The translations under genes and the position numbers were made by a program. Source: Tilletia caries (taxonomy: Eukaryota > Basidiomycota > Exobasidiomycetes > Tilletiales > Tilletiaceae). From it: DNA of 64,000 nt. Numbering within the stretch: the first letter of the stretch is position 1; every line of letters begins with the position of its first letter. This document shows, in pieces, positions 25,805 through 43,076 of this stretch. The stretch spans positions 1,116,001 to 1,180,000 of the forward strand of contig JALUTQ010000045.1 in NCBI GenBank assembly GCA_032718865.1, in the 5' to 3' direction. The notes below the pieces were generated by a model. That model was not told where the DNA came from and ran no database searches. It saw nothing but the letters and a program-made list of their open reading frames with translations.

Positions 25805-27923
25805 CGATCTCATCGTCGTTCATGCGTTCATGGCGGGAAAGAATCCAAAATCTCCGCGTCGCCATCGTGATCGTCATCGCCGTCGCCATGAGAGATGTCG
25901 TCGGCGCGCACAAGGACAGTTCAGGCAAACGAAGGAGGAGTTGACAGAGACATAGCTGAATTGCAAAGTAAGGTCTAAAGATACATGATGGGAAGAAAGA
26001 TGACTGCACAACCGAAAAGCATGTGCACCTTGGCGAGGTCGCGAGTTGTGTTCGTCGCTCAGGGTGGTGGAAGCGGTGGAGAGCGAGGGGACTCGACATG
26101 GTGCGATGAGGCGACGAGGTCGGGATGCGAGGATGTCGGAAGGCGAAGAGGTCGAGGACGAGGAGATCGAGACGCGAAGACGCCGGAGAGGAGAAGAGGG
26201 CGAGGGCGAGGGCGAGGGCGAGGGCGAGGGCGTCGGAGAGGGGAGAAGAGGTTGAAGCGTTGGAGGGCAAAATGAGTCGAAGGAGAAGTCGTAGCGAAAA
26301 GGCAGCAGAGAGAAAGAGAAGAAGTCATGGTGATCAGTATGAGAGTCCGAAGTGGAAGAAGGTGAGGGGGCCGAGAAAACTCACCCCTTGCGGGTCCGCG
26401 CTCTTCTCCTCGCCATCCTCAAAATAGGGGGCCAAGGCGCATCAGAGCAAGCTCCGAATTGCCCAGCGGCGGGTAGGTCATCAGAGAAGAGCGGAATAAG
26501 GAACCAAGAGCCCCCGAGCCATGGTTCCCTGCCTCCAACCCCGTCCGCCACATCCCCCTCCTCAAGTAATCGACCGCCGTCACCGACCAGGCCCGGCTTC
26601 CCTCGGCCAACTCCGTCCCACTAACCCAACTACGCTGCCAAGCAGAGCTCGTTCCCAGCCACACTCGCCTCTTGCCCTCCGCGGACCCCGGCCGCCACCC
26701 CCCACGGGGGCAGACCAGGGGTGGACAAGGATTGAGATGCTTGGCGTCGTAGTGGGCGTCGTGGGTTGGCGGTAGTTGGTCGAGCGTTCGCAAGACCTGA
26801 TGGTAGCAGCGGTCGAAAACCTAAAGAGGGGAGTGTGACGGGCGAAGAAGAAGGTAAGAAGAAAAAAATTTGATGAAAAGATGGGGAAAGAAGGGAAAGG
26901 GGGACAAATCAGCGTCTGGAGGCCCTCCTTTTTATGCCTTTTCCCGTCCGTTGAATGACCTGTTTCGACGGTGCTTCAGAAACAGAATCTTCGACTGTGT
27001 CGTGTTCTGAGGAGGAGAGGGGCGATCGGACGCTGAGACCAGCTGGGCGCTTTGCTGGCGCCTGGCGGGAGTCGGGACGAGGAAAGGTAAAAGACGAGTT
27101 CCCATCGCAGGTCGGGCGTGCGATCCAGTACGGTGCCTTGCCCTTAGCCCACGCGTTCCTGTGAGAGCCCCGTGTTACCGGCAGGGCGCCAAGGCAAGAG
27201 GACCAGAGGCAGGGTGCTGACAGGCCCTTCGGAACGAGCGAATGGCGAAATCGGTTCGCTGTCAATTGAGGATCCAGGAGCTGTTACTGGAAAAAGAAGG
27301 AGAGTCAACAAGAAGGAGGAAGCGATAAGCAGTCAGCACCCGTATGCTGTAACCATGAGCCATGAGGCAGAAGGGCAAGGCAGACAGCGAGGCAGGGAGA
27401 AAGGAAAGCAGGAGGGGATGATCAGCTGCCGATTGTCGTGCATGCCGTTTCCTTCCTGTCGCACCTGTCGCACCTGTCGCACACCGCCGCCCTTGCCGCG
27501 CCAAACGCCCCCCTGTGTAATAAATGAATGGCATCATACGGACAGAGCGGAAATGCCTGCAGTGGGACCGCCTTCAGCGAGGAATCTTCAAGGGCAGACC
27601 GGGAGGAGGACAGGCGTGTTTGTCCCCTGGCGCCCTGTGTGTTAGAGCCGATGCCAAAGATGCTGGAGGGAAGGAAGAAGGAAAAGGTTGTGCGGAGATT
27701 CGCACACAACGCAAAGTCCGCTTCACACCTCGCACAGTCGCACCCCTCGCTAGAGCTGGCAGACGGAAACAGAACGACTGCACATCAAACGGCCAGGTGC
27801 GGGATCAGCTATTTTTCTTCTCGCTGCCCATCCCATTGTCGCCGTGCTCGAGTGTCTTTGTGAGGGTGCGAACGAATAGGCTCTTCTGCAAATCTCACTT
27901 TTTCTGGCAGGCGCGTCCGACCC
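25805..27923 (+). repeat. Left arm of a 2.1-kb inverted duplication
   Basis: Near-identical in reverse complement to 28008-30953 once the 790-bp insertion in the right arm is set aside. Differences I could see: 6 versus 12 copies of GAGGGC (26196-26231 here), a short tandem GCATGAAC next to the outer end, six C versus five at 27508-27513, and five T versus four at 26939-26943. No gene with a recognisable domain lies in the arm. The empty site of the MITE found in the other arm is GCCATGGT at 26518-26525. Confidence 0.95.
26196..26231 (+). repeat. GAGGGC hexamer tandem repeat, 6 units
   Basis: Six perfect units; the mirror tract in the right arm has twelve. Because the unit is six bases long, all frames read as dipeptide runs (GE, RA or RG on one strand; AL, PS or RP on the other), which explains the long spurious frames here. 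Confidence 0.97.
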
Positions 27924-28007
27924 GCGCCTGGCCGAAGTCCCCTTCACACGAGTGTCAACTCCCTCATTCCGCATGATGATGGCTGCGAACGGAGGTGCAA
28001 GCGGCTC
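27924..28007. other. 84-bp unique spacer of the palindrome, with divergent ATG-initiated frames
   Basis: The only sequence not shared by the arms. A frame starting MMMAANGGASGSG runs rightward into the right arm, and one starting MRNEGVDTRVKGTSARRG runs leftward into the left arm. Both enter the same arm reading frame (GSDAPARK) just before a shared GTGAG donor-like site. In the right arm an acceptor at about 28157 would open a long continuation that includes EGCDCARCEADFALC. This could be a head-to-head gene pair differing only in its first codons, but no product is recognised. Confidence 0.3.
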
Positions 28008-30953
28008 GGGGTCAGACGCGCCTGCCAGAAAAAGTGAGATTTGCAGAAGAGCCTATTCGTTCGCACCCTCACAAAGACACTCGAGCACGGCGACAATGGG
28101 ATGGGCAGCGAGAAGAAAAATAGCTGATCCCGCACCTGGCCGTTTGATGTGCAGTCGTTCTGTTTCCGTCTGCCAGCTCTAGCGAGGGGTGCGACTGTGC
28201 GAGGTGTGAAGCGGACTTTGCGTTGTGTGCGAATCTCCGCACAACCTTTTCCTTCTTCCTTCCCTCCAGCATCTTTGGCATCGGCTCTAACACACAGGGC
28301 GCCAGGGGACAAACACGCCTGTCCTCCTCCCGGTCTGCCCTTGAAGATTCCTCGCTGAAGGCGGTCCCACTGCAGGCATTTCCGCTCTGTCCGTATGATG
28401 CCATTCATTTATTACACAGGGGGCGTTTGGCGCGGCAAGGGCGGCGGTGTGCGACAGGTGCGACAGGTGCGACAGGAAGGAAACGGCATGCACGACAATC
28501 GGCAGCTGATCATCCCCTCCTGCTTTCCTTTCTCCCTGCCTCGCTGTCTGCCTTGCCCTTCTGCCTCATGGCTCATGGTTACAGCATACGGGTGCTGACT
28601 GCTTATCGCTTCCTCCTTCTTGTTGACTCTCCTTCTTTTTCCAGTAACAGCTCCTGGATCCTCAATTGACAGCGAACCGATTTCGCCATTCGCTCGTTCC
28701 GAAGGGCCTGTCAGCACCCTGCCTCTGGTCCTCTTGCCTTGGCGCCCTGCCGGTAACACGGGGCTCTCACAGGAACGCGTGGGCTAAGGGCAAGGCACCG
28801 TACTGGATCGCACGCCCGACCTGCGATGGGAACTCGTCTTTTACCTTTCCTCGTCCCGACTCCCGCCAGGCGCCAGCAAAGCGCCCAGCTGGTCTCAGCG
28901 TCCGATCGCCCCTCTCCTCCTCAGAACACGACACAGTCGAAGATTCTGTTTCTGAAGCACCGTCGAAACAGGTCATTCAACGGACGGGAAAAGGCATAAA
29001 AGGAGGGCCTCCAGACGCTGATTTGTCCCCCTTTCCCTTCTTTCCCCATCTTTTCATCAAATTTTTTTCTTCTTACCTTCTTCTTCGCCCGTCACACTCC
29101 CCTCTTTAGGTTTTCGACCGCTGCTACCATCAGGTCTTGCGAACGCTCGACCAACTACCGCCAACCCACGACGCCCACTACGACGCCAAGCATCTCAATC
29201 CTTGTCCACCCCTGGTCTGCCCCCGTGGGGGGTGGCGGCCGGGGTCCGCGGAGGGCAAGAGGCGAGTGTGGCTGGGAACGAGCTCTGCTTGGCAGCGTAG
29301 TTGGGTTAGTGGGACGGAGTTGGCCGAGGGAAGCCGGGCCTGGTCGGTGACGGCGGTCGATTACTTGAGGAGGGGGATGTGGCGGACGGGGTTGGAGGCA
29401 GGGAACCATGGCTAAGGTTGTCCCCGGAGTTGACGCGGAGCTGGGGTTTTGCGGACTCCGTACTCCTCCGACGGAGGGCTCCGCCGGAGGCGGAGCGCGG
29501 AGCTCACTTTTGAGAGATTTTTGACCTTAAAAAAGCACGGAGTCCGCCTGGAGGACTCCGCCGGAATTTACGCGGAGCGCGGAGCCCAATCCTGGGCCCA
29601 CTAGTCAAAAGTACGGAGCGCGGAGTCGTCAAAATTGTGCGAAAATTCCGGCGGAATTTCCGCGGAATTCCGTCGGAGCTGTGAGGTCACGTGATCGTCG
29701 AAAATAGGGGTCACGTGACCTTATTTTTGGGTGCGCTCCGCCGGAATTCCGTCCAAGTTCCGCGGAAATGTGCGGAATTCCGAGAAAATAGGCATCGCCG
29801 AGACACGCGCAGGAGATAAAACAGGCATCATCATCCGTTGAGAGCTTCAGAATAGCACTGGAGTCAATACCGCAACAATGTCGGATGGTGAATGTATAGC
29901 TCTGATTGTGTTAGAGTCATTCTGAGAGCAAATTATACCACCACTGCGCTCCGACGGAGTTCCGCGGAATTCCGAGCTCCGCATACACGGAGCACGGAGG
30001 AGCATTATGAAAACGCACAGAAAAACGCGGAGCGCGGAGCTGGGATTTCAACTTTTTGTATAATTCCGTCGGAACGCGGAGCTGAGTTTTTTCAGCTCTG
30101 TCTTAGTCTGCGGAGGCGGAGCTCGCCTCAAAAAGTCAAAATTCCGGCGGAATTTGGAAGTGCGGAGGCGGAGCCCTCCGCGTTACTCCGGGGACAACCT
30201 TAACCATGGCTCGGGGGGCTCTTGGTTCCTTATTCCGCTCTTCTCTGATGACCTACCCGCCGCTGGGCAATTCGGAGCTTGCTCTGATGCGCCTTGGCCC
30301 CCTATTTTGAGGATGGCGAGGAGAAGAGCGCGGACCCGCAAGGGGTGAGTTTTCTCGGCCCCCTCACCTTCTTCCACTTCGGACTCTCATACTGATCACC
30401 ATGACTTCTTCTCTTTCTCTCTGCTGCCTTTTCGCTACGACTTCTCCTTCGACTCATTTTGCCCTCCAACGCTTCAACCTCTTCTCCCCTCTCCGACGCC
30501 CTCGCCCTCGCCCTCGCCCTCGCCCTCGCCCTCGCCCTCGCCCTCGCCCTCGCCCTCGCCCTCGCCCTCTTCTCCTCTCCGGCGTCTTCGCGTCTCGATC
30601 TCCTCGTCCTCGACCTCTTCGCCTTCCGACATCCTCGCATCCCGACCTCGTCGCCTCATCGCACCATGTCGAGTCCCCTCGCTCTCCACCGCTTCCACCA
30701 CCCTGAGCGACGAACACAACTCGCGACCTCGCCAAGGTGCACATGCTTTTTCGGTTGTGCAGTCATCTTTCTTCCCATCATGTATCTTTAGACCTTACTT
30801 TGCAATTCAGCTATGTCTCTGTCAACTCCTCCTTCGTTTGCCTGAACTGTCCTTGTGCGCGCCGACGACATCTCTCATGGCGACGGCGATGACGATCACG
30901 ATGGCGACGCGGAGATTTTGGATTCTTTCCCGCCATGAACGACGATGAGATCG
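28008..30953 (-). repeat. Right arm of the inverted duplication (carries a MITE)
   Basis: Mirror of 25805-27923, interrupted at 29413-30202 by a MITE. The GCCCTC tract at 30498-30569 has 12 units against 6 on the left. A frame at 28666-29109 (KGKAPYWIARPTCDGNSSF, then SEHDTVEDSVSEAPSKQ) looks protein-like and is present in both arms, but with a different end because of the 4/5-base A run (28998-29001). The outer end falls next to the remains of the coiled-coil gene that starts at 31034. Confidence 0.95.
29413..30202. mobile_element. hAT-like MITE, 790 bp, in the right palindrome arm
   Basis: The ends are perfect inverted repeats beginning TAAGGTTGTCCCCGGAGT. The 8-bp target duplication ACCATGGC sits at 29405-29412 and 30203-30210, while the matching place in the left arm is uninterrupted with a single copy, so the borders are exact. 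There is no transposase. The interior is packed with CGGAG / CTCCG motifs, which may be subterminal transposase-binding repeats as in hAT elements, and holds two TCACGTGA palindromes near 29694-29720. It closely resembles in size and plan the element at 32716-33507. Confidence 0.93.
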
Positions 30954-31400
30954 AGGATGAGATGGCGTATGACCATCATTTCCAAGTCCTTGCCCCGCGA
31001 GCGCGTTTGCTACGCAACTAACTGTGCGATTCCATGTCAGAAGGTCGCAATCGCGCTTCTCTGCCTAACAAGCCGGCGGCGAGCGCAGGGTCAGCGCTGG
31101 CTGTTCCAGCGTCACAGGTTGGCCAGCCGCGCTCGGCGAGGACCTCGACTTTGGCCAAGAGGACGTCTTCTGCGGCGGATCTGCCCATCGACGGAGCTGG
31201 TGAGTTTTCAGCAAGGTCTCTATTGGATGATGGTGATCTGAAGGCATCACTGACGAGGTGGGCATCTATTCTTTTGCTACAGGTGCTCCGAAACGACTGG
31301 TTGCGACGGCACCAGTGGCATCGCAGGCCAGCTCGCGCACATCCATAGCGTCCGCTGCGGGTTCGGAAACCAATACCAGCGAACCAGCGATCGACACTTC

Positions 31401-31459
31401 TATGGAACGCCGTTTGTAGCACCTCTTGAAAATGAGAAATCAAAAATCAAAAGCGGGAC
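31401..31459 (+). repeat. Left terminal inverted repeat of the 6.7-kb transposon
   Basis: 59 bp; the first 39 match the right end perfectly and two mismatches follow. The start (TATG..CGCCGTTT....CACC) is shared with the smaller element at 38154. Confidence 0.95.
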
Positions 31460-31553
31460 GCACTGCACCTCCATCACCCTCTTGACCACCAGCTACTTCA
31501 TCTCCTTGCGCACTGATTATTGATTCTTCGGCATCCACGCAGCACGCTTCATC

Positions 31554-34500
31554 ATGAGCGAAAACGAAGCTCCTGACGCAGAAGATGTTGCTACGTTCTG
31601 TGGCCAATTCGATGCTTTCGTGGACCCAGTCGAGTCCTTCATCACCAATCCAGCGCGCGATTTCCAGCTTCTTCCCATTCATCTCGAAGCTATACAAGAA
31701 GGCTTCGATCTCATTGCACCGATGGCGTATCTTCTACCTACCCGTATCTACGACGCAGCAGCAGCATCCTTGCGCATGCTGAGAGCTCAACTCGAAGAGC
31801 TTCACAATCGAGAAGACGTGGTGCCGCTGGTCCAAAAATGGGAGCAGAACGACAAAGGAATCTGGTCGCTGGATATCGACCAAGACATCCTTATTGAGCT
31901 CACCGAGCTGCGCATACCCGACAGTGCTTGCCAGGATATTATGACCGGAAGGAGTCATACATGTCATATGACCTAAATAAGAGTCATAAAGTCATAAGTC
32001 CAAAGATCTGCTTATATAATCGCCGCACCGGGAAGATCGACCCATAATCACCGCTCAACCTCCAAAGCACCGTCGATCACTGTGCCAAATGAAGTAGTTT
32101 CCAGTTGGTGGAAACTAATTGGAAATCCGCAGTTTCCAAGGGGTTTCCATGGCGCTGGAAACTAGACCAGTTTTCGGGCAGTTTTCTTTGGATCCGAATA
32201 CTGTGCAGTTTTTCGAAGGGTTTTTCGGTACTTGGAAACTTGAAGCGGGTCTGGGAGGTCGATGCCGGGCGAAGACCTCTTGGTTTTCCCAATTGGCATG
32301 ACCCCGCTCAACAGTCTCAGGGTTTCTAGGTAACCGGCTTCAACCTCAGAAAATTCATAGCTGCTTCCTGACCAAAACGATGCTCATGTCTGACGACAGA
32401 AACCGTGGAATTACTGTATTGCTACCCGTGTGTACTTGTGTTGAGACATGCACTTGTCAGTGGTGAGTGTGGATGTGTCGAGTGGCACGGGTAGGCCGTG
32501 CCTGGGCAGCGACACCCTGAGACCAGGCAGTGGTAGCGCTTGACCCCACCGCGGTAGCGTGGTCTACAGGAGGCTTACATAAGGTGGCCCGTGCTACACC
32601 AAAGGGTTTTCGACATAGGAAAACTGTAGGAAAACTGCTGCGCATTTTTTAGTTTTCGGCGGCGAAAACTATCGAGTTTTCACGGGGTTTCCACCAACTG
32701 GAAACTACCTCGGATTAAGGATGGGCGCGGAGTAAGCCCCGGAGTGGGTTTCCCGGAGTTCCCCGACTATTCGGGGCCTCACTCCGGGGGAGTACGGAGT
32801 GCGGAGTGCATTTTCGAGGATTTACTCCTGCTGATTGAATTCTGCAGGAGTACGGAGCGCAAGCCTGTCATGTCCCCGGAGTACGGAGTACGGTAAGGCT
32901 TGGAGCTAACTTTTCGCCGGAGTACGGAGTGACTAGCTCGAATGCCAGACGGAGTGCGGAGTTTCCCCCGAAACTCCGGGGCGCTCCGGGGCCTTGCATT
33001 TTTCAAAATCAGGTCGCAATTTTGGAAAATTTGGCCAGAAACGGGCAGATTTTGCTCTGTTTTTCAAAAACATTGGCAAGATTCATTTTCAGATATCTCA
33101 TTTGGGGTTCATATTGTGTGTTTGTGAGCTCTACGACCGCCAACGATGATTCTGCCGAACAAAAACATGGTTGGAAGAGGGGCAATCAATGGAAGGGTCC
33201 ACATTTCTCAAGTTTTGTAGGACCTCTGCGAACTTTCCCCGGAGTACGGAGTTTCGGGGGAGTAGTCGCGCTCCGTCACCCCCGGAGTACGGAGTGGACT
33301 TTGAAATTTTTACTAAATTCAGCCGGAATACGGAGCTGGCGCAATGAGATGGGAAGATTTTGTGCGGAGTGCGGAGTGGAATTGGGGCGACTGCCTAAAA
33401 ATGAGCGGAGTACGGAGTGCGAAAAAGAATCTCAAAATCAGCCGGAGTCAGCCGGAGTAGGGGCCGCGGAGTACGGAGCACTCCGGGGCCCTCCGCGCCC
33501 ATCCTTACCTCGGATGGCACAGTGGATGACGCCGCAAGGCCTTATTGACGAAAGTTTCTCGTGTGAATGGGCGTTTGATAGCTCTGAAGGACTTGCACAG
33601 CCGCCAAAGGAGGATTTTGAGCCAAAAATAGCGTTCTTCAGGTCATTTGGTGAATATGACCAGATATGACCTATAATAAGAGTCATATGACCTATAATAG
33701 GAGTCATGTCATATGACCAGGGTCCGGAGCGAAACTCAAATAGGAGTCATGTCATATGACCAGGCCTCAAAACCACACCATCTTGCGTCGGCGTGTGGCA
33801 TTGGGCCTTTCAAAACAGCATCAAAACGTCGATATGAATGAGCTCTGTCAGGTGAGTGGAACTTCGTCTCATTTGGCTTGGATGTTGGAATGAGGCCTTG
33901 TTCTGTTTTCTAATTTCTGTCTCTTTTATTGGAATCCAAAGGCGATTGAAGCGGTGCGCAATTTGAGCACCGGCGAGGCTGGCGAGCGGTGCCTTGCTGG
34001 AGCGCTCATCGCCGTCGGTCTATCGGTCAGCCGCGCCCAATTGCGCGAAGCAGTGCGGCTTCTCAATCCATTTCCTTTGCCCGCGCGCTGGCGTACTGCA
34101 CTTCAGAGACGTACATACTACGTACCATTCGTGAACTCGCTTTGGCATCTCGACGGCCATCACAAGCTCATTCGCTGGCGCTTCGTGATACATGGATGTA
34201 TCGACGGAAAAACTCGAACGGTCACATTCATGCGGGCCCATTCCGACAACACGGAAGCCAGCGTTACGGCAGCTTTCCGTACCGCCACGGACAGATGGGG
34301 CTGGCCGAGCCGGGTTCGTGGGGACTTTGGCGGCGAAAATTTGGGTGTGAAGGCTCTCATGGAGCAGCATCGAGGTCAGTCGCGCTGATACCTTCATGCT
34401 GGTGTTACCGTGCTTGAAGATGACTCATTTCACGCTTTGATATTCGATTTATGACTGTCGACTACTCAGGAGTAGGGAGGGGCTCATTCATTCAAGGCAG

Positions 34501-35098
34501 TTCCGTCCACAACCAACGAATCGAGCGTCTTTGGGTCGACTTACAACGCTTGACTACCGACAAGTACAGACGAGCATTTGAGCATCTGGAGGGAGAGCGC
34601 CTTTTGGACGTCTCCAATCCAATCCACAAGTGGGCCTTACATTTCATATATCTTCCACAGCTCAACTTCGCTTTGGATCACTTTGCCGTCATGTGGAACA
34701 ATCATGCGATTCGGACTCCTGGCCTCAACAACCGTTCTCCTTTACAGCTTCGAGCGGAGGGCATCATAGACGCCCGACAGCGCGGCGTCGTGATAATGGA
34801 TGGACCGCTGGACGATGCCCACCTTGGTGAGCAAGTGGAGAACGTCAATCAGGGTCTGCGCAATTTCGCCCTTTACGGTGTCGACTTTGTGGGACAAGGT
34901 CGCGAACGTAGAGACGACGATCCACATGTCCACATCGAGGCCATTGACCATCTCCTTCCCCCTGCGCTTCTCGACCATGAACTTCAGGCATACTGGCGAT
35001 CTCAGCTTCCTCCCGCTTGGCCGCCCTCCCAGGACTTTGGTGTCACTGCTTACACCAATCTGTTGGACATGATCTTTGAGCATCTTTCTCTTCAATGA
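31554..35098 (+). CDS. Integrase-core (DDE) transposase, probably interrupted
   Basis: Enzyme expected to cut and join the ends of the surrounding element. Pieces: 31554-31946 (MSENEAPDAEDV..), 33762-33851, 33942-34374 and 34470-35098; the last two introns are GT..AG. The first piece ends ELRIPDSACQDIMT and the next continues with a RRRVALGLS motif, so together they look like the helix-turn-helix N-terminus of this family; 1,815 bp of repeats separate them. The catalytic core has WHLDGHHKLIRWRF (first Asp), RVRGDFGGEN (second Asp) and SVHNQRIERLW (Glu), spaced as in retroviral-type integrases. If all pieces belong together the product would have about 514 residues. Alternatively a shorter protein (about 385 residues) starts at 33756. 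Eukaryotic proteins with the GHHKLIRW core are common in animals and Agaricomycetes. Confidence 0.85.
32095..32707. mobile_element. MITE with GTTTCC ends and TA target site, about 610 bp
   Basis: The ends are 21-bp perfect inverted repeats beginning TAGTTTCCAGTTGGTGG. TA at each end may be the target dinucleotide, as in Tc1/mariner-type elements. The repeat is itself partly palindromic (GTTTCC..GGAAAC), and further TTTCC/GGAAA copies lie inside. No coding capacity. No longer target duplication was found. Confidence 0.65.
32716..33507. mobile_element. hAT-like MITE, 792 bp
   Basis: Inverted repeats begin TAAGGATGGGCGCGGAG (17 bp perfect, with similarity beyond). The 8-bp target duplication CCTCGGAT lies at 32708-32715 and 33508-33515. 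The interior repeats GGAGTACGGAGT many times on both strands. Size, TAAGG start and GGAG-rich interior match the element at 29413-30202, so the two are probably one family with different terminal subtypes. It landed directly beside the end of the GTTTCC MITE. Confidence 0.92.
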
Positions 35099-37015
35099 CA
35101 ATTTTCATTGATGGCTTAGGTACATTCTGATGGCTTTGAGTGGTTGTGTTTGACGTTTGTGAACGAAAGGCGAGAGTGATCCGGAGGCGAGAGCGAGTCG
35201 GCGGCGAGAGAGAGCGAGTCGGAAACGGGTGTGATGTGATGCGTTCGGAGTCGCTAACGCGCGAGACGACGCCGCTGTGCCGTTCGCTGGCCCGCATTGC
35301 TGCCTGGTTCTGATCAATGACCTTGCAGAGCATGCATTCCCAGTCGCTGTCAGGCTCAAAGTCGTCCGCTAGTGCGGCCTCGACGCAGGGCTTGTGGTAC
35401 CAGCGGACCGGGCATTGATTCTTAGACACGCATTCCACCCACTCTCCTCTTTTTCCAAAGTGAATGCGACCAAGTCCTTGGCAGTAGCACCATTTGCAAG
35501 CGTCGTTCCACTCCGGAACGCCTTCGGGAAGCTTGCGGGCGCGCTGCTCTTCGGGCTGGAACAAGTCGTCAGGGTGGTGAATTCCTGCGAGGTCGCCCTT
35601 CCAGAATCGCTATGAAAGTCAATGATAGATGAATCAGTCAAAAGTTTATGGGAATATGCACCAATTCGTTGCAGGATCTTTCTTTACTCACGTCACTGTA
35701 ATCAAGAGACTTGGTTCCGCCCACCCTTCCGTGGAATCCGGGCTTTCGCGGAACCATGGGCTTGCCTAGGCGATCGCACTCTGTGGCATGCTCCTCGATG
35801 TATTTGCTCGGCATGACAAGCAGGCAGTAATTGCATTCCGCAAGTTCATGACGCTGCTGCTGGTCTGGAGTTGGATTGTCGTTGGTCACGAAGTAGTCCT
35901 GAAAGACCTTGTTGCACTGATCAGTGTCGCGGACAATCACACAACGGCTACCGCCGTACTCGATCTGAAGCTTGCTCGCATCGACGTATTCGGGTGCAAG
36001 TCCAGCAGGAAGGAGCTCGTGGTTGTTCCCGACAACCTTTCCGTATCTGAAAAGCAAACAACAATGAAGGATTTATCAGATAAAGAAAGAGACATGAAAG
36101 TGCAAGCGCCTGAGGCTTGAGCTTACCGAAACCCGTGTGTCGTAAGGTCCCAGTTCTTCTTCTTGAACTCGTCGATAATATACTCCATCACTTCAGCACT
36201 ACTCATCACCTTTCTGATACCCTTCGACGATATGATGCAAGAATGAGTCTGAAGAAAGACGGCAAGATCCAAGGGCTTGTTGTCTGTCCCTTTAGGCTTG
36301 TCGTGATTGTTCATGTGAAGATGCCATCCGTTGAAGGGGATAAGCCATATCTGATCACCAGGGGACAGTGATCAGTCGACAAGGGGAGAGACGGAAGAAA
36401 AAATGTACCATGAGCACACATTGATCCAAGATCAGAAGCGGAATAGCTATCCACTTGTTGAACTCACCTCGTGTCCTTTCAGGCTCACGGGAGCAGACGG
36501 CGGACCGCTCTGTCGACGGACCGTAGACTTTGCCTGTCCGGACGCAAAGTTGAGACGTGCAGCCGCAGCAGCTCCCGCACTGGCCGTAAACGGAGTTGCG
36601 CTTGCGTTAGAACGCCAATCAGCAGGGCCAGAAAATGTGCCGGACGTGTTGCGTTGAGATGAGCCGACATCAGGCGCAGCGGAAGCTCGACCCCATCTGT
36701 CATTGCCCGAACTCGACTGCTGTTGCTGCGCCTGCGGCTGCTGGTGTTGGGGCTGCTGGTTCTGCGACTGCTGCTGCTGCTGGGCTCCGGTGGCAGCGCC
36801 ATTCACAGGGGGGGCTGACGACTTCTCGAGGTTAGACATCCTCGAATCCATGGAACGCATAAACTGACGCTGTAGTTGAAAGGGGGAGCACCAGACGTGT
36901 ACATTGTCAGTAGCTGAATAGACTGGAAGAAGGACGACGTAGACGTCTCGACTCTCGACACATAACGCACCAATTCATCGCCGAGGATTTGATTGCCTTC
37001 GGACGCTCCAGACAT
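35043..37015 (-). CDS. PHD-finger protein carried by the transposon
   Basis: Five exons: 37015-36971, 36869-36468, 36350-36127, 36046-35692 and 35609-35043; about 530 residues, all GT..AG and in frame. Start MSGASEGNQILGDEL. Exon 2 is Gln/Ser/Ala-rich (QQQQQSQNQQPQ). Exon 3 (IWLIPFNGWHLHMNNHDK, AVFLQTHSCIISS) and exon 4 (YGKVVGNNHELLPAGLAPEYV, then CNYCLLVMPSKYIEEHATEC) form a globular part with a possible second zinc site. Exon 5 holds a C4HC3 PHD finger: CKWCYCQG, then GEWVEC, CPVRWYHKPC and WECMLC. PHD fingers read histone H3 tails, so the protein may tether the element's machinery to chromatin or choose targets; that is inference. Its 3' end overlaps the transposase 3' end by 56 bp, antisense. 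The C-terminal 70 residues are Ser/Arg-rich and least certain. Confidence 0.8.
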
Positions 37016-38013
37016 TGGGACTTGTTTGGCTGAAAGAGCCGAATGAGAATGAGTGGGTAGGAGATCTTGAAAGGAAAAAGGTCAGCTATATATGGTAATG
37101 TGGTAGTGGTTGTCCATTGCTGCTTCATCAAAGAAAAAATTCTTCATGCATGATTCTCTCTTGTTCTCAGTGATTCCCTTTGTGCCCAGCGTGATAGAAT
37201 TTCCTTTGTCCGAGCAGGGTCCTTTGTCTGACTCTGGGCTCCAGAGTTGACTGAGCTTTTGGCCCGCTCGGGCCAGGGAGCAGAACGGCAGCGAGCAGCG
37301 AACACATGCATGCAGGTCGTCGAGCGGTTGAGCCAGTCCTGATGAGGATTGGAGACGGTCGACACTCGGCAGTATGTATTCGCGTATGTATGGTACTGAA
37401 ATATGAGACGAGGATTGAGAATTATGAGCGTGTTGATCTCCTTGATCTGTGATCACCAGGCTCAGAAGGTAACGCACTCACAAGACACCAATGACTGGGC
37501 CATCCGGGATGGCGAGCGATTGCGCATCGGTGCCGTGAGCCGTCTGTCGAGCGCAGAAATCAGGATGGCCTGGAATGACTATCGATCAGCACTGCATGAC
37601 AATCAGAAGTCCAATGATTAGTTGCGTGTGCATGCGAAGAGAGACGCCCAAGAAGCATACTCAAAGTGCCCACGAGAACGAAAGCAAGCGCAATGAGAGC
37701 CATGCGCACGCCGGTCGCCGAGCACCGATGCCTCGTACCCGTGTATGCGACAAACTGGGGAGTGGGAAGGGAGGGAAAGAGCAATGGAGGCAGGGCAACT
37801 GAGAATGAAAGTTCAGCCGGTCAGCGGGAGGGGAATGGAGAACAGTCAGCAAGCTGTAGAGCAGCAAGGACACCGCGCACTGGGTGTTCGGAATGCTGGT
37901 GACTGCAAGATGCAGAACATCTTGATTGTTAGGCCTGTGAGCATTGACGATTGCTGCGCTGAGGCACCAAGAAGGCAGAGCAGTGGGTGTGGTTGGAGGG
38001 AAGGTGGTGAGGT
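37016..38013. other. Right part of the transposon, no recognised gene
   Basis: Upstream of the PHD gene and inside the element. Several frames of 60-130 codons exist on both strands, but none has a known motif or a matching set of splice sites. It probably contains the promoter of the minus-strand gene. Confidence 0.5.
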
Positions 38014-38072
38014 GTCCCGCTTTTAATTTTTGGTTTCTCATTTTCAAGAGGTGCTACAAACGGCGTTCCATA
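38014..38072 (-). repeat. Right terminal inverted repeat of the 6.7-kb transposon
   Basis: Reverse complement of 31401-31459 with two mismatches. It is followed by target copy CACTTC at 38073-38078. Confidence 0.95.
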
Positions 38073-38153
38073 CACTTCCTCTCCTCGTCCTCCGCCGCCG
38101 CAGATGCCGGCGTGCCCGACCACCTCCTCTCACTCAGGCCCACCCTCCGAGTC

Positions 38154-39366
38154 TATGACGCGCCGTTTTGATACACCTATTTTTGACAATTGCCTTTTGA
38201 CAAATGACAAATGACATTTGACATTTGCTATGTGACCACCCTGGATCCCCCACCATCACTGGCCACCACCACCGTATCATACAACCATACACATATGGAA
38301 CAACTGCAAGAAACACCTCGCACATACTTGGTACCCCTTCCGCTCCTTCAGCGCCCCTGCGCTCCGCTTTTTGTCACTCGCTGATCGCTCACCAGGCGCC
38401 AGCGCCCGTCGCTGACCTCTTCCCCCTTGCATTCCCGTTTTGCCCTCTCATCTTCTCACAGCTTCTTCAGGTATCTCTGCCATCGTTGCAAAGCACATCC
38501 GATATCCAAGTGAGCATATCTCTGCCACAAATGTGATTGCATGAGTATACTGACGTAGAGTTCCGCCCATCGCATTCCTCTCTAGACTTCGCTCAGCCTC
38601 CCACCCGCAACCTGCCCCTCGCGGCCTTCTTCCTCCAGAGCGGACAAGAGCAGCGAACGGATGCAGACCTGCAACGGCGGATGAAGCGGAAGGCGCGATC
38701 CGCGGAGTAGGAGCGGGGGAGCAGGAGCGGCAGGAGGGTAGCAGCTGCAGCGGGCGGAGAGGGCACAAGTCCGAGAGCAGCTGAGGCAGCAGCGGCGAGA
38801 GGCGGACGAGAGGCGAGGATGAATGGAAGATAGCACCGCTGTAAGAGTGAGAGGAGAGAGAGGAGTAGGAGGAGGAGTGGGGGGAAAGAAGAAGGGTCAA
38901 TTGGACGGATTGAGAAGAGGCGAAGGTCAGTTAGAATCAATGTCAACGGAGGCACGTAATCCAGTTATAGGTGCGCGCGGTGCGCGGGGTGACAGCCTGA
39001 CGTTATCCTCGTGATGGGACCAAAGAAGAGAAGGATGTGAACAAGTGTATGGTATATGGTGGTGGTGGACACTGATGAAATGGGAAAGCAAGGGGTCAGC
39101 GAGTGCTGGGGGTTAGTGAGCCATCAGCGAGCGAAACGACACGGAGCGCAGGGAGTCTAGAGGAGCGGCAGGTGAGCCCATGTATGCGCTAGGTGTTTCT
39201 TGAAGCTTTTCTATATGCGGATGGGCGTGATGCAGTGGGCTGGTGGGCAGCGGGGCAGCGGTGGTGCGAGGAGGAGGAGGTGGTCACATAGCAAATGTCA
39301 AATGTCAAATGTCATTTTGTCAAATGTCAATTGTCAAAAATAGGTGTATCAAAACGGCGCGTCATA
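38154..39366. mobile_element. 1,213-bp non-autonomous relative of the 6.7-kb transposon
   Basis: Ends begin TATGACGCGCCGTTTTGATA and match perfectly for 39 bp. Weaker inverted similarity continues for roughly 280 bp on each side, including TGACAAATG/CATTTGTCA repeats, an AAGAAACACCT block and a CCTGCGCTCCG block, so it is almost a foldback element. The 6-bp target duplication CGAGTC is at 38148-38153 and 39367-39372, and omitting the element keeps the host frame open. The terminal pattern TATG..CGCCGTTT....CACC and the 6-bp duplication are shared with the neighbouring large element. No transposase inside. Confidence 0.92.
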
Positions 39367-40564: not shown

Positions 40565-42502
40565 TCACGTTGTATCGCGACTTCGGAACAGGCGCATCTT
40601 GGATTTGCGAGTGGGTGGACTTGCCGACAAAGCCGCTGCCCCCGGGGTCGCAAGTTCCCTTTCCCGCGCTAAAGCCGCGCCAAAGATAAGCAGCTGGTCT
40701 GCCAGACTCAACTCCTCGTTGTTCGTCTCCGCGGACGAAGACGGCTTCGGATTCTCCATCGGCATTTTGCTGATCAGGGCAGGACTCTGGAGCAGGAGTT
40801 CCTCCGCACGGTTCAGGATCTGCTGAGCCGCCTCTCGGGACGTGACGCCGACGTCATAATTCCTGATCACTGTCTCCATAATTTCTTCGTCCTCCTCCTC
40901 ATGTGCGACATCAATGCTGTTCGTCGAGCTTTGGTCGGCCCCCGGCTGCGGGGTGCTCGTCGACGCCGCGTGTGATGCCGTGACTCGCTCAAAGAGACGA
41001 TCGCGGCTCTTCGTTGTCGTGCGTGACCGCATATGTGACTGGTTGGGAAGAAGTGGGGGCGGCATCCGATCACGAGAGTCAAACTCGGTCGAGCGCTGAC
41101 GTGAAACAGAAGTGGCTGGCGCTGGCATACTTCCTCCCCCTCCTCCTCCTCCCGCCGCCGAGGTAGAGGGCAAGCTGGGAGAAGGCTGTGACATATGCGA
41201 TTGAGAACCAAGCTTGCGCAAGATATTCGGAAAACTGCGCTTATTGCCGACCCGCTGAGCCCGATTCGGGCTCGGAGGCGGACCGTTAGATGCTTGCAGA
41301 AGAAGCGTCTGCATGCGTGGCGAGCGGTTCCAGCCTGAGAATGTAGCTTTCATGCCTGCTGCGATGTGTTCGAGCGAAGCCTGCTTTTTCAAGCCGCGGG
41401 TGGGGGTGGTGACGGGAGGAGGTCCCGCACCTTCCCTGATTTCGATAGGCGGTGGTGGTCTTCGTGTGCCGGTCAGAGCCCGCTCTCGCTTAAAAGTTGA
41501 TGACGAAGGACCGTTCGGGACGGGGGTTGTGCTGGAGGAATGCTCGAGGGAAGCTTGCTTTTTCAAGCCACGAGTGGGGGTGGTAAATGGAGGAGGTCCC
41601 GCGCCTTCCCTAATTTCGATGGGCGGTGGTGCTCTTCTTATGCTGGTCAGAGCCCGCTCTCGCTTGTATGTCGATGACGAGGGCGCATTCGGGACGGGCA
41701 TCGTGCTGGATGAGGACGAGGATGACATATGGGACGAAGGACCACCGCTGACAGAGCTAGGGTTGGCGGGTATGACTGGCACGATGGCGGGTCCTGCCGC
41801 AGCCTTGCGCAAGATTTCGGCACAAAGATTATGACCCGTGGCCGAGGCAAGCATTTCTGGGGTGATGCCTCGATTGTCCTTCGCATCTGCTCTGGCTCCG
41901 TGTTGGAGCAGGGCCACGATGACGGCTCGATGTCCTCCAGCGGCTGCGAAGTGGAGAGCGGTACTTCCGTCTTCGCCGGGCCCGGCTGGCTGAGGCACTG
42001 GCGGCGGTGCGCCAGTTGTTGAACCCCTCCTCGGCAAGTCTACAGATGCATTCCGGGTTTGTATGGGGGAAACGAAGAGAAGGGGCCGATAGAGGAGGGC
42101 ATTTGGGTCTGCGCCGTATGAGAGGAGCAAGGCGACGATATGCTCGTTCCCTCCTGAGGCGGCAGCATGGAGTGGCAAGACGCCGTGAAGGGGCTGAGCG
42201 AGGGCGGCTGCCAAGATGGTGGATTCGCTGGCGTATGACTTCAGGAGGGAGCGCGCAGCGGCGAGGTTTCCAGATGCCGCTGCGCTGTGGAGTGTGTGAT
42301 GCGCTTGCTGTTGCTGTTGTTGCTGTTGCTGCTGTTGCTGTTGCTGATGCTGTTGCGCTTGCTGCTGTTCTCGCTGCTGGGCATGAGAGGGGGTCGAACC
42401 GCCGAGCGAGGCTGCGGCAGGCGAGCTGGCCGAAGACGACGCGGCAGCGGAGTGGTAGGCAGCCGCAATGGCTGAAAAGCTGGCCTTGGTCCCGAGCGGC
42501 AT
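40565..42502 (-). CDS. Ankyrin-repeat protein with poly-Gln tract
   Basis: Function unknown. One main coding exon of about 645 residues from MPLGTKASFSAIAAAY. A GTAAGT..TTGCCAG intron of about 64 bp just upstream (about 42586-42523) would lie in the leader. A CAG/CAA run (about 42300-42380) encodes poly-Gln. Ankyrin units follow: HTLHSAAASGNLAAARSLL, LPLHAAASGGNEHIVALLL, TALHFAAAGGHRAVIVALL and a fourth beginning NRGITPEMLASATGH. After them, about 56 residues are present twice in tandem (41440-41730), each copy with KRERALT, PPPIEIREGAGPPP and TRGLKKQASLEH. The C-terminus is Ser/Pro-rich and ends in a helix (SLADQLLIFGAALAREREL). Ankyrin repeats mediate protein contacts; no enzyme domain is seen. 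Confidence 0.88.
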   Translation of the reverse strand: MPLGTKASFSAIAAAYHSAAASSSASSPAAASLGGSTPSHAQQREQQQAQQHQQQQQQQQQQQQQQAHHTLHSAAASGNLAAARSLLKSYASESTILAAALAQPLHGVLPLHAAASGGNEHIVALLLSYGADPNALLYRPLLFVSPIQTRNASVDLPRRGSTTGAPPPVPQPAGPGEDGSTALHFAAAGGHRAVIVALLQHGARADAKDNRGITPEMLASATGHNLCAEILRKAAAGPAIVPVIPANPSSVSGGPSSHMSSSSSSSTMPVPNAPSSSTYKRERALTSIRRAPPPIEIREGAGPPPFTTPTRGLKKQASLEHSSSTTPVPNGPSSSTFKRERALTGTRRPPPPIEIREGAGPPPVTTPTRGLKKQASLEHIAAGMKATFSGWNRSPRMQTLLLQASNGPPPSPNRAQRVGNKRSFPNILRKLGSQSHMSQPSPSLPSTSAAGGGGGGGSMPAPATSVSRQRSTEFDSRDRMPPPLLPNQSHMRSRTTTKSRDRLFERVTASHAASTSTPQPGADQSSTNSIDVAHEEEDEEIMETVIRNYDVGVTSREAAQQILNRAEELLLQSPALISKMPMENPKPSSSAETNNEELSLADQLLIFGAALARERELATPGAAALSASPPTRKSKMRLFRSRDTT

Positions 42503-43076
42503 CGTTCGGTATGCAGAGTGCGCGACGCTGGCAAGGGAAGCAGTCGAGTCAGCCGGCGTACTGCGATCCCGCTGCGGCCTGGACCACTTACAGTACACAG
42601 TCAGAGGCAGCGCCAGAGAGATCGAAGAGGATGAGTGAATGCGATGATTCAGACTGGGACGCAGCTGGGCATCGATCGTCCTTGCCTGCCTCAGGCCTCA
42701 GTTGGGGGGAACGCCCTGCTGGCTGAGTCGTTTCGTTAGTCGCTGGTACACAGGAAACGGGAGGCCTGTCTTGCTTGCTCGCTCGCTCGGTCCTTGCGCC
42801 TGGCTCGCCTTCCGCAGAGAGCTCAGCTGATGGCCGTCGTGGACGAGGATGAGGAACGAGTTGAAGCTCTGACCCAGATGAGGGAATGGCAATGGCAATG
42901 AACGATGGCCAGACGATCTTCAAGACCATCACCATCACCCATTCACTCTTTCGCACTCCGCACCCAGACCCAGACCAGCCCGGAGCGAGCGAGTCGCTAG
43001 CTGTCCCTTTCCCACTCTCCCGTGTTCATACATACATAGACCTTACAGACCGCGCGCTCAAGTTCCCTCGCCCAAG
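42503..43076. other. Divergent upstream region of the ankyrin gene and UBC12
   Basis: Holds the leader intron proposed for the ankyrin gene and the UBC12 promoter. No further gene is seen. Confidence 0.5.

Follow-up and report, generated by a model that had tools for sequence, protein, structure and literature searches.

What kind of mobile element occupies positions 31401-38072 of the 64,000-nucleotide stretch of the Tilletia caries genome analyzed here (hereafter, the window; assembly GCA_032718865.1, contig JALUTQ010000045.1, positions 1,116,001 to 1,180,000), and what does the second gene that it carries opposite its transposase gene contribute? The evidence assembled below makes it very likely that this 6,672-bp DNA transposon is a cut-and-paste element of the IS3EU type; the product of the partner gene, which is present in several families of such elements, probably cooperates with the transposase, or acts upon it, at chromatin. 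A preliminary description of the window had proposed an IS3EU-type transposon with a PHD-type partner, and this proposal is backed by a second copy of the element, by other families, by counts of target-site duplications and by empty sites. IS3EU itself is a little-studied superfamily.

The element is delimited by inverted ends of 59 nt that are 97% complementary, with the outermost 39 bases identical, as the preliminary description had it; the outermost termini are TATGG..CCATA, and the duplicated target sequence CACTTC is present on both sides, again as described (Table 1). The surrounding host sequence is multi-copy in the genome searched (38.1 Mb in 40 contigs, the window being part of contig C39). 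Contiguous matches to both flanks are found at C19:663490-663650, C1:1191778-1192108 and C7:1983097-1983486, and each of these three paralogous sites, in the aligned sequences, contains one CACTTC and no element. When the left-flank query (912-1000 or longer) ends at CACTTC and the right-flank query starts at it, the two matches have exactly 6 bp in common at all three sites. The alignment also reveals small indels that distinguish the window locus from its paralogs. The argument originally given for the borders, that the host frame is open without the element, holds for the joined flanks; the stronger proof comes from the three empty sites, where the single CACTTC that had been expected of an empty site is seen in paralogous host sequences of the same genome.

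A search for the family-specific inner end GTAGCACCTCTTGAAAA, of the kind suggested in the preliminary description, finds four occurrences in the genome, and these are the ends of two elements that both enclose the transposase gene, namely the window element and L009 (C7:600515-605408, 4,894 bp, with its own duplication CACCTG). The aligned parts of the two are 98.4-99.6% identical. The window element includes 1,851 bp (31922-33772) that are foreign to it and in place of which L009 has 33 bp; the transposase frame of the window copy hits a stop inside this stretch, and the codons that in relatives weakly match helix-turn-helix models have been removed. Because transposase exon 1 is interrupted, the element, which had been called complete, is not so in its coding part: no whole transposase can be produced from the window copy, whose movement would have to rely on another copy. 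Uninterrupted transposase frames exist in sibling families. The nested stretch looks like at least two smaller insertions, with inverted-repeat arms at 32091-32115/32687-32711 and 32716-32732/33491-33507; it is a stack of short elements with repeated CGGAGTACGGAGT units and these two inverted-repeat pairs.

Beyond this family, the 11-base end TATGGAACGCC occurs 202 times in the genome compared with 5 times for the reversed control, and the 14-base end TATGGAACGCCGTT 184 times compared with once for its control, an excess that excludes chance. Neighboring facing end pairs less than 10 kb apart, 27 in all, were taken from the window and 25 loci (L009-L028 and L039-L043) and inspected for duplications of 4-9 bp. 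An exact 6-bp duplication, which had been predicted for other insertions, flanks 18 of the 27 pairs, and a 7-bp duplication flanks three, with neither found at six; among pairs with two like ends, the 6-bp duplication is present in 17 of 24. Several short elements (1-2 kb) are related to the longer ones by their ends: L026 and L019 have about 1.0-1.2 kb in common with L039, L023 and one L027 element have ends of about 170 bp in common with L010, another L027 element has 25 bp in common with L013, and L022 has about 50-70 bp in common with L041. At the ten loci L029-L038, mostly with weaker transposase matches, no complete end pair is found.

The plus-strand gene encodes a DDE integrase-core transposase, as previously described: two exon pieces from the window match the Pfam profile rva_4 (PF24764, integrase core) with E values of 1.6e-33 and 3.8e-31, and the catalytic spacing, measured in L009, is D-56-D-34-E. 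Exon matches to rva_4 number 82 in this genome (collapsed by hand to 39 loci) and 0 in 14 control genomes. The three-exon layout is seen in L009 and in six of nine further aligned loci, the remaining three (L042, L014 and L015) giving four pieces; the protein-to-genome aligner can bridge damage with false introns, as at the last partner exon of L009 and at L014 and L042, and the exon lists at these three places are not gene models. For the sibling family L041, the spliced transposase model is 100% identical to a public Tilletia laevis protein over 500 amino acids. Among the best 120 of the 575 proteins matched in the relatives search (7,996 candidates scored), there are sequences from Tilletia, Tremella, Trichosporon, Cryptococcus, Rhizophagus, molluscs, cnidarians and fish. 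Comparison of exon 2 between families gives 84-90 synonymous versus 44-58 nonsynonymous differences, at 107 synonymous and 325 nonsynonymous sites. A search of the open-licence literature for rva_4 or PF24764 yields nothing related among the matches listed.

The partner gene consists of five minus-strand exons, with splice sites placed by hand, that together encode 530 amino acids without a stop. The two genes are arranged tail-to-tail: the last partner exon shares sequence, on the opposite strand, with the 3' end of the transposase gene. The predicted protein is 98% identical to a Tilletia controversa protein that terminates just beyond the PHD finger, which casts doubt on the longer C-terminal tail of the window model. 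Partner genes opposite the transposase gene are present also in L014, L039-L042, L010/L011 and L015; in L013, the opposite-strand gene has motifs that are similar by eye and no significant match to the other partners. Genome-wide, 18 partner loci are detected; at 15 of these, from about five families, an rva_4 match is located tail-to-tail at a distance of less than 5 kb, which is not the case at the other three (in C32, C25 and a fragment in C27). This count excludes matches covering the PHD part only (C39:1543863, C34:1359638 and C25:806835), and L013-type partners were not among the queries. Identity between the partners of different families is about 21-54%, and the intron between exons 3 and 4 retains its position and phase in L010 and L015. 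Between families, the proportion of nonsynonymous differences (pN, 0.29-0.44) is below that of synonymous differences (pS, 0.66-0.97), which indicates long-term maintenance of the partner protein by selection. Searches against 5.8 billion proteins reveal no homolog outside Tilletia with a single-sequence query (2 matches, 2,125 candidates), and a six-sequence profile gives six matches at E <=0.01, all from Tilletia, with 7,996 candidates scored, so that distant relatives may be missed.

Common to the partner families is an N-terminal domain, for which no significant Pfam match is found, followed by the motif C-x2-C-x11-H-x3-C (altered in L041). The possibility that this C2HC motif is a ubiquitin-binding UBZ4 finger was dropped as no Pfam match of that kind appears, and a PDB search with one C2HC query retrieves only designed proteins, with no passing stretch. 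In four families, a PHD-like finger is located at the C-terminus. It is clearest in the sibling family L010, where it has C4HC3 zinc ligands and is ING-like (ING3 with E = 8.5e-7 and PHO23 with E = 2.6e-6), and a PDB search with the window finger (E up to 1) yields six sequences, all of them ING-family PHD fingers with E values of 0.04-0.63, ING2 being at 0.04. The tryptophan two positions before the histidine is kept in the window, L010, L039 and L041, and is replaced by histidine in P0002. The convergent five-exon gene of the preliminary description is confirmed, whereas its C4HC3 PHD finger is weak in the window copy, below the Pfam cut-off.

Table 1. Features of the transposon and its insertion site, in window coordinates
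Feature	Position	Strand	Basis
Target-site duplication CACTTC, left	31395..31400	+	single copy at three paralogous empty sites
Left terminal inverted repeat, starts TATGGAACGCCGTTTG	31401..31459	+	59 nt 97%, first 39 identical
Transposase exon 1, first part (N-terminus to helix-turn-helix-like region)	31554..31921	+	99.6% identical to L009
Nested insertions inside transposase exon 1, 1,851 bp	31922..33772	.	comparison with L009
Transposase exon 1, remainder	33773..33851	+	comparison with L009
Transposase exon 2, first two catalytic Asp (LWHLDGHHK, RGDFGGEN), rva_4	33942..34374	+	Pfam, alignment
Transposase exon 3, catalytic Glu (QRIERLW), C-terminal part, stop	34470..35098	+	Pfam, frame
Partner exon 5, PHD-like finger (CKWC...CMLC), tail after finger doubtful	35043..35609	-	530-aa model
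Partner exon 4, C-x2-C-x11-H-x3-C motif	35692..36046	-	family alignments
Partner exon 3, part of core common to families	36127..36350	-	family alignments
Partner exon 2, Gln-rich	36468..36869	-	530-aa model
Partner exon 1, start codon	36971..37015	-	530-aa model
Right terminal inverted repeat	38014..38072	-	59 nt 97%, first 39 identical
Target-site duplication CACTTC, right	38073..38078	+	flank sequence, empty-site alignment

The mechanism that we infer from these features begins with the transposase, in which a helix-turn-helix-like region precedes the D-56-D-34-E core. The common TATGGAACGCCGTT ends are most likely bound by this enzyme, which would then excise the element and, with a stagger of 6 bp, join it to the target DNA. 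DDE integrases perform strand transfer with staggered joining, and a stagger of this length would account for the 6-bp duplication. The product of the tail-to-tail partner gene probably works at chromatin, either together with the transposase or upon it: where present, the PHD-like finger may contact the histone H3 tail and in this way steer insertion or allow it, and binding of protein or DNA might fall to the C2HC motif together with the N-terminal domain.

Several observations weigh against this reading. The L010 finger scores 23.0 bits with the Pfam PHD profile, just below the cut-off of 24, and the window finger matches PF00628 with E values of 0.41 (exon piece) and 0.013 (isolated segment), also below the cut-off. 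No PHD finger is seen in P0125 or in the part read of the L015-type partner. The tyrosine before GEM in ING proteins, which we take to be part of the methyl-lysine cage, aligns with arginine in the window and with alanine in L010, and this replacement renders the reading of trimethyl-lysine (H3K4me3) uncertain. Both AlphaFold models of partner proteins are too poor for use, with mean pLDDT of 34 and 41 (from alignments of five and four sequences). With the queries employed, no partner is found at 24 of the 39 rva_4 loci. The transposase frame is damaged in both copies of the family, that of L009 by a frame change in exon 3, and dN/dS of the partner between the window and L009 is 0.62, a value raised by the shifted C-terminus; given the damaged frames and this ratio, there is no sign of recent selection on the window/L009 family. 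Furthermore, nine of the 27 end pairs lack a 6-bp duplication, including L011 and L042, which carry both genes, and L015 and L016 are near-identical including their flanks, so that one insertion is counted twice; since these two are copies of one insertion, 17/26 is a fairer figure than 18/27. Both are 9.2 kb long and lie in opposite orientations on a single 48-kb contig (C11), and their 97% likeness, which extends to the flanks and the duplication, points to a copied segment or an assembly effect.

A rival view of the partner, which we consider to have a little less than an even chance, is that it is either a passenger or a factor by which the element regulates itself (e.g., a repressor or an anti-silencing factor), with the transposase alone excising and inserting. 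Rust TET+ IS3EU elements offer a precedent, in that they carry an alpha-kinase gene and a TET/JBP gene, the latter interpreted as a way of evading silencing (PMC12730594). The absence of a visible PHD finger from the L015-type partner is compatible with such a role, as is the state of the window copy, with an open partner reading frame beside a broken transposase gene. The linkage, the tail-to-tail order and the pN < pS relationship that hold across families at about 21-54% partner identity exceed what idle cargo would lead one to expect; regulation and targeting are not separated by this cross-family conservation.

If the PHD-bearing partner does steer insertion, it would present a parallel to RAG2. 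The RAG1L/RAG2L elements likewise encode a transposase and a PHD-bearing partner tail-to-tail between inverted ends, but they have a RAG1/Transib-type transposase, a kelch partner and a 5-bp duplication and come from animals (PMC7204232). No kelch match is found in Pfam for the P0001 or P0002 partner proteins. Membership of the Tilletia element in the RAG-like group is ruled out by its rva_4 integrase core and its duplication length, and the likeness in layout between these unrelated systems is convergence. The stronger proposition that Tilletia IS3EU elements arrived independently, as a second case, at the RAG1L/RAG2L design, in which an integrase-type transposase is guided or licensed at particular chromatin by a separate histone-tail reader (ING-type PHD plus C2HC) encoded tail-to-tail with it, is speculative and, in our estimate, rather unlikely. 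The occurrence in one genome of partner types with and without PHD amounts to a built-in comparison. A PHD finger is encoded also by the DNA transposon Rehavkus, but there it lies inside a MULE-like transposase, with a 9-bp duplication and one open reading frame (PMC6446971).

By its termini, duplication length and transposase, the element appears to fit IS3EU, the superfamily that the preliminary description named as the nearest: it combines a 6-bp duplication, TA..TA termini, inverted ends of more than 30 bp and a DDE integrase core related to IS3/IS481. IS3EU elements, in Repbase since 2013, have TA..TA ends and usually 6-bp duplications (PMC10045372). The statement that such an element is little described in basidiomycetes needs correction insofar as IS3EU elements whose ends carry the same motif have already been reported from rusts (Pucciniales; Kojima 2025, PMC12730594). 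These TET+ elements have ends TAYGG..CCRTA and inverted repeats of more than 30 bp, and their alpha-kinase gene faces the transposase gene, with the TET/JBP gene between (PMC12730594). They resemble the Tilletia element in the 6-bp duplication, the length and motif of the ends, the transposase and the accessory gene in opposite orientation, and differ in that the facing gene in Tilletia encodes a C2HC/PHD-type protein instead of the TET/JBP and alpha-kinase pair; the main text of that paper, so far as accessible, makes no mention of PHD, Tilletia, Ustilagin- or smut (PMC12730594). Styx from Zymoseptoria is similar in its IS3EU-related transposase, 36-bp inverted ends, 6-bp duplication, more than one gene and degenerate copies moved in trans, but it is a 7.9-kb ascomycete element with four coding sequences and, in the text consulted, no PHD partner (PMC10853768). 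Within the open-licence literature, a scope to which Repbase does not belong, the PHD/C2HC partner looks like a new part. The exact ends, the empty sites, the partner so far known only from Tilletia and the short relatives with the same ends make this a defined system in smut fungi.

An assignment to IS481EU or another IS481-derived group in place of IS3EU is improbable. For four relatives of the transposase, the NCBIfam IS481 model (E values from 1.7e-7 to 9.9e-11) outscores IS3 (best 8.3e-5), all of these matches being below the curated cut-offs; IS481EU is inseparable from IS3EU/GingerRoot in the tree of Kojima 2023, and the TNT..AYA ends of Trichomonas vaginalis IS481EU are also compatible with TAT..ATA (PMC10045372). 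IS481EU, however, is reported from parabasalids and makes duplications of about 4, 15 or 25 bp (PMC10045372), compared with 6 bp (18/27) or 7 bp (3/27) in Tilletia within the 4-9 bp range inspected, and the ends match the fungal IS3EU motif TAYGG..CCRTA (PMC12730594). Membership in IS481EU is rejected on duplication length and transposase type. The remaining notion, that the gene pair is a chance neighborhood of host genes trapped between unrelated repeat ends, has a parallel in L017 (C12:35646-45640), where an unrelated KDZ transposase with a CxC4 cysteine cluster is flanked by TATGGAACGCC ends that are unlike each other and lack matching duplications, but it is given practically no credence, being ruled out by the second copy L009 with its own duplication and by the empty sites, along with the recurrence of the gene pair in other families.

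The same host sequence contains a second element, 81 bp to the right of the first (38154-39366; 1,213 bp); it has related ends (TATGACGCGCCGTTT) and is flanked by the 6-bp duplication CGAGTC. Ends of this type occur 25 times in the genome compared with 0 for the reversed control, and the paralogs L044-L046 are empty for this element too, with one CGAGTC each. A single multi-copy host sequence, in a genus of crop pathogens, has thus received two such elements at a spacing of 81 bp. To the left of the transposon, positions 25825-30941 form a near-perfect large inverted duplication (25825-27923 versus 28009-30941) with six arms of 194 to 583 nt that are 99-100% complementary and about 0.8 kb extra on one side, at 29414-30213. 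To the right, positions 40565-42697 are occupied by a long minus-strand open reading frame that encodes ankyrin repeats.

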